Assembly: GCA_021826795.1 (NCBI GenBank)
Contig: JAKAYM010000029.1
Span: forward strand, 1-15,313
Length of the DNA stretch: 15,313 nucleotides
Direction: 5' to 3'
Origin: Thermoplasmata archaeon
GTDB lineage: Archaea > Thermoplasmatota > Thermoplasmata > Thermoplasmatales > Thermoplasmataceae
Shown here one piece after another: positions 4,824-9,741 of the stretch. The notes under the pieces are model-generated. The model was not told where the DNA came from. It saw only the letters and a list, made by a program, of their open reading frames with translations, and did no database searches. The first letter of the stretch is position 1. Each line of letters opens with the position of its first letter. The translations under genes and the position numbers were made by a program.

Positions 4824-5888
4824 ATGAACGAGAACGACCTGAACGAGCTGAAAAATATTTTTTCGTATCTGGTGGACTCGTTTTCATATGAAGTAGAAAG
4901 AGATACCAAATCCACACATATCGAGGAAATCACACAAATGCTTGAAAATGATAAAAAATCCATAGAACTGATGAAAGGCAAAATCAAGGAAGAAATGGAT
5001 CACTTTGTTACAAACTATGAAGATTTTAGGATCTATGAAGATCATATAATGGAATCCATTAACACATATACAGATCAATTCTTTACAAGGAATTCACATC
5101 AGGCACTCTCGGAGATTGCAGATCTGAAATTAGGGATGGAAAAGGATGTGGAAAACGGTACACGAATAATGGAGGCATTCCTTTCTCTCAACCCATTTAC
5201 AATTTTAAATTCAGAAATAAAAATTACTATAGATGAAAACAATTCTGAAATCCGTGAATCTATAAATTCCAGTTACGGTCTCTCATATGTTTTCCTCTTA
5301 AATCAGATGGAAAGCCAGTTTATGGCCAATCCATTTTTCGCATCACTCTATAACGGGATAAGAATTCCTGTATCAGTTATTGGAGATGATGTGACATATG
5401 AGAGTCTTGACGGATACCATATGGTATCCGGTTACATTAAGGGCAATAAATTTGAGTGCAGATTTATCAGGTCCAGAGAACAGAAATCCTTTTATTTTGT
5501 ATTCGAGAAAGGTGCTTCAGTTATGGATATACAGTTCGAAAATCCTGAAATTACAGTTAAAATAACAGAAAGCCCGGAATTAGTGAAGCATCTTGATTTA
5601 AAAATACTCATAGATGCCCTAGAAAAACTTTTTAATGAAATTATGGAACTTGAAAAGAAAAAAAAGAAGCTTGTATCACTTAAAATGGACAATGCTGAAC
5701 TGTTAAATACCATGGACTTTGAAAAAATATTTTATAGAATAATAGAATCAGATTCTATAAAATCCCTGGTGCAGGCCCTGCCAGAAATAAGTGAAAACCC
5801 AGATGAACTTTCGAAAGAATTTATTACCCAGAGAATACATACGATTGGAAGGGATCAGGATTATATTATATCAACTCTTTTCGGATGA
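4824..5888 (+). CDS. hypothetical acidic coiled-coil protein, 354 aa
   Basis: I do not recognise this family. Residues 1-115 are rich in Glu/Lys/Asp with heptad-like spacing and probably form a long helical or coiled-coil domain. Residues about 120-255 look globular and beta-rich, with alternating hydrophobics (around FECRFIRSREQKSFYFVFEKG). Residues about 258-300 are a second Lys/Glu-rich helix containing EKKKKKLVS, and the tail is helical, ending ISTLFG. There is no signal peptide, membrane span, P-loop or cysteine cluster, so a cytosolic structural or scaffolding role is possible but unproven. It is transcribed alone, divergently from the NDH-2-like gene, and its last 18 bases overlap convergently with cbiF. 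Confidence 0.85.
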   Translation: MNENDLNELKNIFSYLVDSFSYEVERDTKSTHIEEITQMLENDKKSIELMKGKIKEEMDHFVTNYEDFRIYEDHIMESINTYTDQFFTRNSHQALSEIADLKLGMEKDVENGTRIMEAFLSLNPFTILNSEIKITIDENNSEIRESINSSYGLSYVFLLNQMESQFMANPFFASLYNGIRIPVSVIGDDVTYESLDGYHMVSGYIKGNKFECRFIRSREQKSFYFVFEKGASVMDIQFENPEITVKITESPELVKHLDLKILIDALEKLFNEIMELEKKKKKLVSLKMDNAELLNTMDFEKIFYRIIESDSIKSLVQALPEISENPDELSKEFITQRIHTIGRDQDYIISTLFG

Positions 5889-6632
5889 TTTTCTGAAAAG
5901 ATGTGTAAAATCAGGATTATAAAGGTAAGATTTTTTATCAGAATAATATGAAATGTTGCCGCCCACCAGTATCAACGCCTGTCTGTTTATCTTATTTTCA
6001 AACATGGCATGTTCCAGATTTCCAACAGTTGACATTATCATTTTTTCATCTGGCCATGACACCCTGTACGCTATAACTGCACGGTCTTCAGGAGAATATC
6101 CGGCACCGATCAATTTGGTACTCACTTTTTTGGCATTGGAAGCGCTGAGAAATATTGCCAGTGATGTTTTATGCGCGGCCAGCAATTCCAAATCCTCTTT
6201 TTCGAAATGTTCTGTTCTTCTCGGCACCCGTGTGAGTATAACAGACTGCGTTGTACCCGGCGCTGTCAACTCCATACCCAGGCTTGCGGCAGCAGCAAAC
6301 ACAGAACTGATTCCGGGAATTATTTCAAATTTCATGCCATTTTCCCTGAAAAATTGCATTTCATCATTTATTGCACCGTATATGGATGGGTCGCCGCTGT
6401 GAAGCCTTACAATTTCCTTTTCCTGGTCATAATACTTCTTAACTGCTTCATTAATTTCATCGATGTTCATGGTTGATGTTTTTATTATAGTGTTTGCCCT
6501 GCTATCCGAAAAAACTTCAGGGTTTACCAGCGAATCGGCATAAATTATAACATCTGCCGAATCTATAGTTCTTTTTGCCTTTACAGTAAGAAGTTCAGGG
6601 TCACCGGGGCCAGCTCCTATTATATGTATCGT
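5871..6632 (-). CDS. cbiF: precorrin-4/cobalt-precorrin-4 C11-methyltransferase CbiF, apparent ACG start
   Basis: This SAM-dependent enzyme methylates C11 of the corrin ring. From ACG at 6632 the product is 253 residues, the usual CbiF length. It shows the class III methyltransferase motifs IIGAGPGDPELLT (4-16), YADSLVNPE (31-39), VRLHSGDPSIYGA (75-87) and EIIPGISS (103-110). An ATG exists only at 6470, but starting there would delete the first 54 residues including the GAGPGDPE loop that binds SAM, so I reject it. The frame is open back to a TGA at 6666-6668 with no ATG, GTG or TTG. ACG at 6630-6632 follows GGTGAT (6636-6641) at a normal distance. It is the last gene of the operon, its start inside the end of cbiL, and overlaps the gene at 4824-5888 by 18 bases. 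Confidence 0.85.
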   Translation of the reverse strand, partial: TIHIIGAGPGDPELLTVKAKRTIDSADVIIYADSLVNPEVFSDSRANTIIKTSTMNIDEINEAVKKYYDQEKEIVRLHSGDPSIYGAINDEMQFFRENGMKFEIIPGISSVFAAAASLGMELTAPGTTQSVILTRVPRRTEHFEKEDLELLAAHKTSLAIFLSASNAKKVSTKLIGAGYSPEDRAVIAYRVSWPDEKMIMSTVGNLEHAMFENKINRQALILVGGNISYYSDKKSYLYNPDFTHLFRKSSEKS

Positions 6633-7279
6633 TTTATCACCACTATAGTCATGTAATCCCTTATATCATCAATATTATTATAAATTCTTTCCCTATCGGT
6701 AGACACATCACTCATGATGAAATAGTGCTTTATACCATGTTTCTTTATAATATCATTAATTATATCCTTCGCTTTTATAGCCTTGAATATAACTGTATTA
6801 GGCATGGACATTATTCTTTCCTCCATGTACGTGTAATCCTTTATGGCCGGAATTATCTGTAATGGTTCATTCTTTGTTGCCAGAATAATTCTCATTGCAG
6901 CGGAAATCCCGTTCATGGAACTGATTCCCGGAATTACTGAGTATTCCATATTCAGAAATGGCATTATGTCAAGAAAAGTGCTGTATAACATGGGCTCACC
7001 CTCCACGGCATATACTGATTTAATATTCGTACGAGATGCTTCCATGATCATTTTTCCGTATCCTGCACAGAGCTCTGTCAATTTTGCATCCCATATGGGA
7101 AATTCCATTGGTCTCATTTTGTTTCTGTTAATTCCCAGTGCTAACAGTATATTTTCTGCCGAATTCAATGATGTTTTGGGATAAAATACTATATCAGCAT
7201 CATTCAGAGCCCTGTATCCCTTCACCGTCACAAGCTCAGGGTCTCCGGGGCCGAGACCGACAACGGTAAAATTACTCGT
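6620..7279 (-). CDS. cbiL: precorrin-2/cobalt-factor II C20-methyltransferase CbiL, apparent ACG start
   Basis: CbiL adds the C20 methyl to precorrin-2 or cobalt-factor II. From ACG at 7279 it has 219 residues, close to family size. Motifs are VVGLGPGDPELVTVKG (6-21), the CbiL-type VEGEPMLYSTF (92-102; the family usually has EGDP) and VIPGISSMNG (115-124). The first GTG in frame is at 7231 and would remove the GLGPGDPE SAM loop, so it is unlikely to be the true start. The frame is open back to a TAA at 7292-7294 without ATG, GTG or TTG. ACG at 7277-7279 lies 5 bases after GGTGGT. It begins inside the 3' end of the cbiE-cbiT fusion gene and itself overlaps cbiF. Anaerobic versus aerobic substrate cannot be told from sequence alone; the CbiE-T/CbiL/CbiF set fits either. 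Confidence 0.85.
   Translation of the reverse strand, partial: TSNFTVVGLGPGDPELVTVKGYRALNDADIVFYPKTSLNSAENILLALGINRNKMRPMEFPIWDAKLTELCAGYGKMIMEASRTNIKSVYAVEGEPMLYSTFLDIMPFLNMEYSVIPGISSMNGISAAMRIILATKNEPLQIIPAIKDYTYMEERIMSMPNTVIFKAIKAKDIINDIIKKHGIKHYFIMSDVSTDRERIYNNIDDIRDYMTIVVIKRYI
6630..6643 (-). promoter_or_regulatory. ribosome-binding site and presumed ACG start of cbiF
   Basis: The minus strand reads GTGGTGAT-AAA-ACG. GGTGAT is the archaeal 16S 3'-end complement, and the ACG is the first of the few codons before the GAGPGDPE loop. The site lies inside the last codons of cbiL, so translation is probably coupled. ATA codons immediately downstream (6629, 6623, 6620) are alternative non-standard starts. 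Confidence 0.5.
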
Positions 7280-8465
7280 TCTTGACCACCTTTATGATAT
7301 AAATCTGATCCATGGGGATAAATCTTTTGTATTTTGACAGAGGCATAAGTTTGGATATGTTTATCTGCCTTATTTCCGCTTTCAAATTTCTGGATTCAAT
7401 ATAATCAATTGCCTTCTCCAAATTTTCAATGGTTGTTATATTCATAACCAGCCTTCCATTTGTTCTCATTCTAGTGTATGAATAATCCATTATGTCCATA
7501 ATTTTGCCTGACGAACCCCCTATAAAAACGCAATCCGGATCAGGAAGATCATGAAGCGCACCCGGAGCCATTCCATTTATAATATTTATATCGGTTGCAC
7601 ACATCTCCATATTTGTCTGTATATTTTCGCAGAGTTCCGTGCTTTTCTCTACTGCATAAATATCTCCAGTCCAGTTCTGGAATGATGCCGCTATTGCCAC
7701 AGACCCTGAACCTGAACCTATATCCCAGAATGTTTCCCCATCCTCTAGTTCCAGATTGGAAATTGAGATATTCCTTATTTCCTGTTTTGTAATATTTCCC
7801 TTATGCCTGATAAACACGTCATCATCCGGTATTGAGATTTTATGATTGTTTTCTGATGTAAGTATTATAAGATTCAGGGGTTCAAATTCTCTATCCACCA
7901 ATTCATTTATGGAGGAACTTGATATTTTCTCGTTTTCATATCCCAGGTCCTCGAATATATACGCTCTGTATGATATCAGCCCGAATCTGACCATGTATTT
8001 TGCTATGACCCCGGGCGTATTTACGCTGTCTGTAAATATACAGACTTTATTTTTATTGCGTATTTTTTGGGCCAATCCCTTTAAAGGCCTTCCATGGAGA
8101 CTAACAGTGTAGATCCCCCTGGAATCAAGTGCTATTTTGGAAAGTGCAACCTGAATCGAACTGACTTCTGGAATAATATTAACCTCATCTGATTTATAGT
8201 TGTCAGTAATATACCTTCCAATGCCATAAAATAGAGGGTCTCCAGTGGATATTACGGTTATCACTTTGCCGGTATTATACGCTGATATCAGGTCCTCCTG
8301 GAATTTTTTGAATTCTCCAATTTTTACCATAGTCTTACCAGAATGTTTAAAAAGATGCATATTACGCGCACCGGAGAAGATTATATCGCTGCCGTTTATG
8401 CACTCAATAGCCTCCTGTACAGGTATCCTTCCAGGGAAAATTCCCACAACGTTAATTCTCTTCAT
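7272..8465 (-). CDS. cbiET: CbiE-CbiT fusion (CobL-like precorrin-6B C5,15-methyltransferase/decarboxylase)
   Basis: A 397-residue fusion of the two activities that methylate C5 and C15 and decarboxylate the C12 acetate. Residues 1 to about 205 are CbiE, a class III methyltransferase with INVVGIFPG (4-12), ISTGDPLFYGIG (72-83) and IIPEVSSIQ (97-105). Residues about 218-397 are CbiT, with RHKGNITKQEIR (220-231), the Rossmann-type SAM loop WDIGSGSGSVA (247-257) and GGSSGK (316-321). I place the start at the ATG at 8465, directly before KRINVVG and behind a GGAGGG ribosome-binding site; a longer frame to 8510 adds 15 residues not expected in the family. The start overlaps the end of the upstream gene by 14 bases. 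The fusion order is that of CobL. Confidence 0.93.
   Translation of the reverse strand: MKRINVVGIFPGRIPVQEAIECINGSDIIFSGARNMHLFKHSGKTMVKIGEFKKFQEDLISAYNTGKVITVISTGDPLFYGIGRYITDNYKSDEVNIIPEVSSIQVALSKIALDSRGIYTVSLHGRPLKGLAQKIRNKNKVCIFTDSVNTPGVIAKYMVRFGLISYRAYIFEDLGYENEKISSSSINELVDREFEPLNLIILTSENNHKISIPDDDVFIRHKGNITKQEIRNISISNLELEDGETFWDIGSGSGSVAIAASFQNWTGDIYAVEKSTELCENIQTNMEMCATDINIINGMAPGALHDLPDPDCVFIGGSSGKIMDIMDYSYTRMRTNGRLVMNITTIENLEKAIDYIESRNLKAEIRQINISKLMPLSKYKRFIPMDQIYIIKVVKNE
7277..7290 (-). promoter_or_regulatory. ribosome-binding site and presumed ACG start of cbiL
   Basis: The minus strand reads GGTGGTCAAGA-ACG within the last codons of the upstream gene. From this ACG the product would begin (M)SNFTVVGLGPGDPEL, the expected CbiL N-terminus. 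No standard start exists between the in-frame TAA (7292-7294) and the SAM-binding loop. Confidence 0.5.
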
Positions 8466-9741
8466 AATGCCCTCCGAAGAACCACATAATCCTACTGTCC
8501 ATGTTGTCATATGGATATTCCACTCTTATTACCGGAATTTTCCTGGAAATTTTTATATCTTCCGGAATGGAATTCGATGTGCCTGCTAGAACTATCAGAT
8601 CAGATTTTTCAATGTAATCCTGAATATAATCATTGAAGTTAACCTTTCTAAGCCTTGCTATAGGTACATCATCACCCCTGTTATATGATAGTTTCGTATA
8701 CGAACTATCTATTTTTGAAATATCTTTGACGTCGAAAATCCCATACGATTTCAGTAATTCTTTTCCCATTCTGTCAGTTGCAATTTCTCCTATCTTTCGC
8801 AAATCTAACATGGAGGATTTGAATAATTCTAAAACTATTTCCACATATCTGCCCTCAAATGCTATATTTTTCCCCGATAAATACTCTGCATCTATTTTTT
8901 CGGGGAATATTTGTGACTCCCTTATTTTATATACAGTAAATCCTTTATTTTCAAGGTATTCCGTAGATGGCTGGTAAAAATCATAAAATACCGTTACAAT
9001 TTTACCTGAATATTTTCGATTTTCAATAAACTGAAAATTACTATGATAATTAACAACATTTCCAACAACAATAATTGAAGGAGAACCGTTGTATGTATAA
9101 TCTATATTCGCCAGTGTGCCTGTGAATGTTTTCTGATGGTTGTAAGTTCCATTTTCAATGACTGCTACAGGTGTATCATTGCTATAGCCCGATAACAGCA
9201 GTTTTTCTATTAAGCCTTTCAAATTATAAGCCCCCATGAAAATCACCAGGGTGTACATGCTGCACGTAGACTTTTGGCACTGTGGAATGCTCAGATTCTC
9301 AATGCTGTTTCCTGTGGTAACTATCACTCCATGGTTCACATTTCTATGTGTTAGTGGTATTCCTGCAAATTCAGGTACGGAAATCAGGGCTGAAACACCG
9401 GGGATAATCTCGTATTCTATATTGTTCCTTATCAGTTCCTCGATCTCCTCTCCCCCACGGCCGAATAAAAACGGGTCTCCCCCCTTAAGCCTTACCACAG
9501 TATTTCTTTTCATGGATTCGCTGACTAATATTCTATTAATTTCCTCCTGTGATATTCTCTTAGTATACGGTTTTTTACCCACGTAAATTTTATTGGATCC
9601 TGGTTTTGCCATATCAAGAATCTCAGGATTGATAAGGTGATCATAAATTAAAGTATCTGCCTTGGCTATTATCTTTGCACCAGCTACAGTGAGCATGTCC
9701 CTGTTTCCGGGTCCACAGCCAACTATATACGCCTTTCCCAT
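8452..9741 (-). CDS. cobA: uroporphyrinogen-III C-methyltransferase (SUMT) with C-terminal HemD-like domain
   Basis: The N-terminal half methylates C2 and C7 of uroporphyrinogen III to make precorrin-2, the entry to cobalamin (and siroheme). Its motifs are complete: YIVGCGPGNRDMLTVAG (5-21), YDHLINPEIL (33-42), VVRLKGGDPFLFGRGGEE (82-99), EIIPGVSA (111-118) and GIPLTHR (127-133). SUMT proteins usually end near residue 240-260; this one continues to 429. Residues about 245-429 start with a new beta-strand (GKIVTVFYDF) and show two alternating alpha/beta blocks, with IATDRMGKELLKSYGI (320-335) and DLIVLAGTSNSIPED (381-395), like the two lobes of uroporphyrinogen-III synthase. That assignment is a fold-level inference; HemD sequences diverge strongly. 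It is the first gene of the cobalamin operon, read from a TATA box 20-29 bases before its ATG, and the message is probably leaderless. Confidence 0.92.
   Translation of the reverse strand: MGKAYIVGCGPGNRDMLTVAGAKIIAKADTLIYDHLINPEILDMAKPGSNKIYVGKKPYTKRISQEEINRILVSESMKRNTVVRLKGGDPFLFGRGGEEIEELIRNNIEYEIIPGVSALISVPEFAGIPLTHRNVNHGVIVTTGNSIENLSIPQCQKSTCSMYTLVIFMGAYNLKGLIEKLLLSGYSNDTPVAVIENGTYNHQKTFTGTLANIDYTYNGSPSIIVVGNVVNYHSNFQFIENRKYSGKIVTVFYDFYQPSTEYLENKGFTVYKIRESQIFPEKIDAEYLSGKNIAFEGRYVEIVLELFKSSMLDLRKIGEIATDRMGKELLKSYGIFDVKDISKIDSSYTKLSYNRGDDVPIARLRKVNFNDYIQDYIEKSDLIVLAGTSNSIPEDIKISRKIPVIRVEYPYDNMDSRIMWFFGGHYEEN

Follow-up and report, generated by a model that had tools for sequence, protein, structure and literature searches.

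A Shine-Dalgarno-led ACG as the Probable Start Codon of cbiF in Two Genera of Thermoplasmata

The cbiF Reading Frame and Its ACG

The window, a stretch of 15,313 nucleotides from a Thermoplasmata archaeon, carries on its minus strand three genes that lie head to tail and overlap: a 412-aa gene (7272..8510 in the ORF list), cbiL, and cbiF. The first, called cbiT in the original prediction, presumably encodes a CbiE-CbiT fusion. Read from an ACG at 7277..7279, which overlaps the end of the 412-aa gene by 8 nt, cbiL spans 6620..7279 and falls in the precorrin-2 C20-methyltransferase family; its best NCBIfam model, TIGR01467, gives 137.1 bits, below the cutoff of 163.25, and PF00590 gives 98.7 bits. 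cbiF (cobalt-precorrin-4/precorrin-4 C11-methyltransferase), read from an ACG at 6630..6632, spans 5871..6632 with 253 codons and a stop. It matches PF00590 and, as a full-length family member, NCBIfam TIGR01465 (cobM_cbiF) with 293.6 bits against a cutoff of 259.65, residues 2-247 aligning with profile positions 1-247 of 247.

The reading frame of cbiF is bounded upstream by a TGA (6666..6668), and neither in the 11 codons that separate this stop from the ACG nor anywhere from the TGA down to the GAGPGDPE loop is there an ATG, GTG, or TTG. The earliest standard start is the ATG at 6470, codon 55, and a product beginning there loses the glycine-rich GAGPGDPE loop, which we take to have a role in SAM binding and which is present in the protein started at ACG. 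Directly upstream of the ACG (6632-6630) lie AAA (6635-6633) and GGTGAT (6641-6636), a Shine-Dalgarno (SD) site 3 nt from the proposed start. The original prediction that cbiF lacks a standard start and has an ACG behind a GGTGAT ribosome-binding site, giving 253 residues, is thus borne out by the sequence and by the TIGR01465 match.

The two genes share 13 nt (6632-6620), ending with the cbiL stop TAA at 6622-6620. The last codons of cbiL read GTG GTG ATA AAA CGA TAC ATA TAA, and the -1 frame over the same stretch reads GGT GAT AAA ACG ATA CAT ATA ATA and runs on into the GAGPGDPE loop of cbiF. An ATG in place of the ACG would turn the CGA codon of cbiL into TGA and so remove the last three residues of CbiL.

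Strength and Spacing of the Shine-Dalgarno Site

We located the 3' end of the 16S rRNA in the Ferroplasma genome G007 (GGATCACCTCCT), and the GGTGAT of cbiF is complementary to it. The calculated duplex energy is -8.4 kcal/mol for cbiF, -8.3 for cbiL, and -11.0 for nuoM, a third gene with an ACG that is described below. Among 594 first-ATG sites of the G007 sample the median is -3.1 kcal/mol and 17.5% reach -8, so that all three ACGs are seen to stand behind strong SD sites. The spacing is also an ordinary one. SD-preceded ATG sites of the G007 sample lie 3-5 nt from GGTGAT in 86 of 113 cases, and the 3 nt found at cbiF occur at 25 of the 113.

Conservation of the cbiF Start

We compared the start region of cbiF in three genera: one identified as Ferroplasma through one of its 10 genomes (G001-G010), a second genus taken as Picrophilus (G028 and G091), and a third (G027, G063, and G062) that is probably Acidiplasma, to go by the name of a similar protein (P0016). 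Among 77 genomes searched in the family, 21 match cbiF at E values up to 1e-30. The ACG is present in the window, in 10/10 Ferroplasma genomes, and in both Picrophilus genomes (13/13 sequences), and the SD is identical in the same 13, an agreement beyond what chance would give. The original prediction had made its case hinge on whether most relatives carry an ATG here. None of the 12 genomes of the two ACG genera does, whereas the third genus has ATG at exactly this codon in 3/3, behind SDs that are weak in G027 and G063 (-1.9 kcal/mol) and stronger in G062 (-7.8 kcal/mol). Four distant loci (L079-L082) have AAG at the codon and an ATG two or three codons upstream. Among 45 loci of the cbiF search, the three from Thermoplasmata whose starts were compared (L031-L033) repeat G001, G008, and G004. 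The cbiF tree is compatible with more than one branching order of these genera, and with either a single origin of the ACG followed by loss in the third genus or two origins.

G001, whose cbiF groups with that of the window in this tree, is flagged as 5% contaminated. It carries one core gene twice (C41 and C73), one copy being equally close to G005 and to the kin of G001; this duplicate fits the contamination figure.

An 18-nt block around the SD and the ACG, TGGTGATAAAACGATACA (6625..6642, minus strand), is invariant in 12 distinct sequences, a set that leaves out G010 as a near-copy of G005 at cbiF. Within 180 nt on either side of the ACG the second-longest invariant run is 5 nt, and 33% of the 360 positions are invariant. 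Part of the block owes its conservation to the cbiL gene that it overlaps, which counts against its value as evidence for a start. We compared third bases in columns where the amino acid is itself invariant. The third base is invariant in 5/5 such cbiL columns within the overlap, as against 1/7 in the rest of the cbiL tail and 1/17 in cbiF codons 5-60. Fisher tests give 0.008 against cbiL and 0.0002 against cbiL and cbiF pooled, values that, given the small samples and related sequences, are indications and not exact probabilities. In ten Ferroplasma sequences (the window included, G010 left out) the cbiL background is 4/17. The pattern suggests that conservation of the block is not explained by the cbiL frame alone.

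The ACG of cbiL Is a Separate Event

The original prediction had also treated the ACGs of cbiL and cbiF as one paired device, with joint regulation of the two enzymes. This did not hold. The cbiL ACG is common to the window and to G001 alone of the 10 genomes of the genus, and the other nine have ATG at the position, so most relatives do carry a standard start here. Since 9/10 genus genomes have ATG at cbiL, the two ACGs differ in age, and we rejected the idea that their match reflects shared control. Nor is the C of the cbiL ACG forced by its overlap with the upstream gene, where AAC and AAT both encode Asn.

A Second Independent ACG in nuoM

The comparison of G007 and G005 orthologues revealed another ACG in nuoM, which encodes NADH-quinone oxidoreductase subunit M of complex I and scores above the cutoff of TIGR01972. 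Its front reads GGGGTGATCTAA-ACG in G007 and GGGGTGATCTAA-ATG in G005, and in G007 the next standard codon after the ACG is number 37. Within the genus the ACG occurs in 3/10 genomes (G007, G008, and G001, so that the G001 allele is also present in two other genomes) and ATG in 7/10. The same codon is ATG in 3/3 genomes of the third genus and in one of two matches in G028; in the second G028 match and one match in G091 an ATG lies one or two codons further upstream, and the remaining G091 match is incomplete. No overlapping frame constrains the nuoM ACG, as the upstream frame stops at a TAA or TGA directly before it. That ATG and ACG exchange in a complex I gene speaks against a device special to the cobalamin pathway, and the suggestion that ACG tunes these enzymes to a low level is unsupported.

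Surveys for Further ACG Starts

The orthologue surveys drew on 2.4 Mb from three genomes (G007, G005, and G028). Reciprocal best matching of 800 kb from G007 with 1.2 Mb from G005 yielded 614 non-overlapping ORF pairs, in a comparison blind to ACG starts a few codons from a standard codon and to genes outside the sample. In 124 of the 614 pairs the alignment extends at least 4 codons ahead of the first standard start of either genome. cbiF shows the longest and clearest codon-like evolution in this region among all 614: its upstream stretch of 46 codons, 11 of them before the ACG, has 15 synonymous against 5 non-synonymous changes, distributed 5, 2, and 18 over codon positions 1, 2, and 3. Third-position changes outnumber the rest in 10 of the 124 pairs. 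Synonymous changes exceed the others in five, the four besides cbiF on the strength of one synonymous change and no other. Among the other ORFs listed in which conservation reaches beyond the first standard start, the changes fall mostly on positions 1 and 2, the pattern expected of overlap with a gene read in a different frame.

ACG starts are rare by this measure (2 of the 614 paired genes in the G007 sample). In the 2.0 Mb sampled from G007 and G005, the codon preceded by an SD at the front of an ORF was ATG 107 times, TTG 10, GTG 4, ACG 3, AAT 3, and any other codon at most twice. The ACG total comprises two instances of cbiF and one of nuoM, and as such the number lies at noise level. Where one genome had an SD-led first ATG, the other had ACG in 1/114 cases from G005 to G007 (nuoM) and in 0/113 from G007 to G005. 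A further comparison of 400 kb of G028 with the G007 and G005 samples yielded 336 orthologue pairs. In 34 of these at least six aligned codons preceded the first standard start, and no clear further ACG start was seen among the 34.

Whole-genome searches for GGTGATN{3,4}ACG gave 10 sites in G007 against 11 in the reversed control, 11 against 9 in G001, and 14 against 4 in G028, the only genome with a clear excess over the control. On inspection two sites in each genome resembled gene starts. One was cbiF in all three; the other was nuoM in G007 and G001 and a gene of metallo-beta-lactamase fold in G028. The latter (L221:1503-271), which we take to be RNase J/CPSF-like, and its orthologue in G091 (L236) have the ACG behind GGTGAT, and its orthologues have ATG in all 8 genomes examined from Ferroplasma and the third genus (9 copies). 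We regard this start as unproven, since the SD itself contains a GTG in the same frame, three codons ahead of the ACG.

Several other candidates were left uncounted. The ATG/ACG pairs A2-194172 and A2-395715 lack a clear SD and share an ATG further down. At L205 and L207 (G007:C1:1462848 and 1666704) an ACG directly follows a stop, with a standard codon four codons on. Both loci hold one and the same 102-codon ORF, whose front reads GGTGATATAA-ACG and which resembles, we presume, a transposase fragment. On the minus strand at G007:C1:533185 lies a 1562-codon ORF with GGGTGATTTAA directly before an ATA, a possible ATA start; a signal-peptide-like front, IINKKKTIAYTFVAIMIISAFAG, follows the ATA, and the first standard codon comes 15 codons on. 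The sample contains no orthologue of this ORF, nor of the second ATA candidate or the ATT and CTG candidates (one each). The 800 kb of G007 contain three tRNA-Met genes (CAT) and no tRNA with the anticodon CGT.

Alternative Explanations

One alternative concerns the reason why ACG persists and is compatible with initiation there: the codon might be a frozen by-product of the overlap, cbiL needing its CGA arginine. The TGA that an ATG would create in cbiL favors this, as does the ATG found where cbiF is clear of the end of cbiL; in G027 and G063 the gene begins some 200-300 nt past the end of the cbiL alignment. G062, on the other hand, has both an overlap and an ATG, which meets the cbiL stop as ATGA, with cbiL ending at that TGA. 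No constraint of this kind acts on the ACGs of nuoM and cbiL, and the CbiL protein does not require the third bases that are invariant in its codons within the block. We consider the by-product account a serious contender, slightly short of an even chance. Given G062, the overlap would act as a constraint on a cbiF ATG, but not an absolute one.

A programmed -1 frameshift near the end of cbiL, slipping on A AAA at ATA AAA CGA, would yield a CbiL-CbiF fusion and dispense with a cbiF start altogether. The A run is invariant together with the bases around it, the cbiF frame is open for 8 to 12 codons between its stop and the ACG in 13/13 sequences, and -1 frameshifting is discussed for archaea in the matched text of one source (PMC5009743). 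The site consists only of the A AAA run and is not a tandem slippery heptamer, and the separate cbiF genes of G027 and G063, with their own ATG, indicate that a fusion is not required. The explanation also does not extend to the other genes. If the three loci were recoded, cbiF would need -1 slippage, cbiL +1, and nuoM same-frame read-through of a TAA or TGA, which leaves SD-anchored initiation at ACG as the simplest account. The original prediction had ranked frameshifting below an ACG start for the opposing shifts, and it fared well here; we regard frameshifting as improbable.

About equally improbable is a start at the next codon, ATA. AUA is one base from AUG, the ATA is found in 13/13 ACG-type cbiF sequences, and the database record for the G007 gene (P0001, 252 aa, MHIIGAGPGDPE) begins at it. 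The ATG of the third genus nevertheless aligns with the ACG and not with the ATA in 3/3 genomes. Starting at ATA would lengthen the spacing from GGTGAT to 6 nt, which is found at 8 of the 113 ATG sites, against 25 for the spacing of the ACG. The codon behind the ACG is AGT in cbiL and ATT in nuoM, so the element that the three genes share is the ACG.

It is very doubtful that C-to-U editing of the mRNA turns ACG into AUG before translation in the manner of plant chloroplasts, although the ATG and ACG forms differ only by T or C at the middle base. We know of no C-to-U mRNA editing of this kind in archaea. In chloroplasts the starts of rpl2, psbL, and ndhD are made by such editing, which the matched text of the same source describes as not observed in bacteria or algal chloroplasts (PMC9845219).

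The least likely account is a truncated CbiF from a downstream ATG, GTG, or TTG, as database entries such as the 241-aa Picrophilus P0121 (front MELLTLK) are annotated: the part upstream evolves as coding sequence, the GAGPG loop is kept in 13/13 ACG-type sequences, and the first standard codon always lies behind that loop, scattered from index 11 to 76 with no common place.

Discussion

We propose that CbiF begins by SD-anchored initiation at the ACG at 6632-6630, a reading to which we give a probability of about 0.82. The missing standard starts, the conservation, the homologous ATG, and the strength and spacing of the SD are properties of the sequences themselves. The GGTGAT site would position the small ribosomal subunit so that its P site holds the ACG, which the usual initiator tRNA (anticodon CAU) would read with one mismatch at the middle base. 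Given the 13-nt overlap, we infer translational coupling, in which much of cbiF translation would probably be done by ribosomes coming straight off cbiL. Such tolerance of ACG would have let ATG and ACG exchange at cbiL (the window and G001) and at nuoM (G001, G007, and G008), and the overlap itself may keep the codon in place at cbiF. Its retention in Ferroplasma and Picrophilus suggests that these cells are able to begin proteins at ACG, and the comparisons are best read as evidence that ACG, though rare, is a genuine start codon of the lineage.

Initiation at ACG in eukaryotes and viruses resembles this proposal in that the initiator tRNA reads the ACG, and differs from it in that the codon is reached by scanning and without an SD. 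In archaea, SD-led initiation as treated in the matched passages of a review shares with cbiF a strong SD at a common spacing and probably the same factors and initiator tRNA; the start codons named there are AUG, GUG, and UUG, and ACG is not among them (PMC7531240). Aeropyrum, in an excerpted source, has starts rich in TTG and not ACG (PMC5911459), and aIF1 is described in another excerpt as destabilizing complexes on non-AUG mRNA (PMC6237735). Like cbiF, the edited chloroplast starts have ACG in the DNA at the start site, but they need C-to-U editing (PMC9845219, matched text).

The nearest prokaryotic precedent among the sources found, all in excerpt, is the tape measure gene of the mycobacteriophage Corndog, which has ACG where its relatives have ATG (PMC4351075). 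As in cbiF, no standard start lies in the available stretch and the ACG takes the position of the relatives' ATG; peptides reach the residue adjoining the ACG, and expression is not obviously reduced. The Corndog case differs in being a phage gene in a bacterium, for which its authors left ribosome bypassing possible, and its excerpted account is without the SD comparison and the conservation between genera that are both present for cbiF (PMC4351075). No archaeal ACG start was recognized among the literature matches listed, a search with most subscription journals outside its range.

Public CbiF entries of the clade (P0121, P0001, and P0002-P0012) start inside the protein or at ATA, and their N termini are probably mis-annotated. 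A separate predicted protein, P0013 (376 aa), consists of the front part of CbiL followed by the rear part of CbiF with the junction missing, either a real fusion with a deletion or an assembly error. A start codon outside AUG, GUG, and UUG in two genera would mean that some archaeal database proteins are without their N-terminal catalytic loop, as is P0121, which has no SAM loop.

More tentatively, and at somewhat below even odds, the Ferroplasma-Picrophilus lineage could use ACG regularly, if rarely, as a fourth start codon led by strong SDs, one that is efficient enough for core genes and stable across two genera. The core genes would be nuoM and perhaps, in Picrophilus, the metallo-beta-lactamase-fold gene. 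If true, this would point to relaxed proofreading, for instance in aIF1 or the initiator tRNA, or to an archaeal form of C-to-U start editing. The ACGs of cbiF and nuoM would offer a natural system for the strictness of start-codon checking in archaea, and as the nuoM alleles of G007 (ACG) and G005 (ATG) stand behind nearly the same SD, they would make the efficiency of ACG directly measurable.
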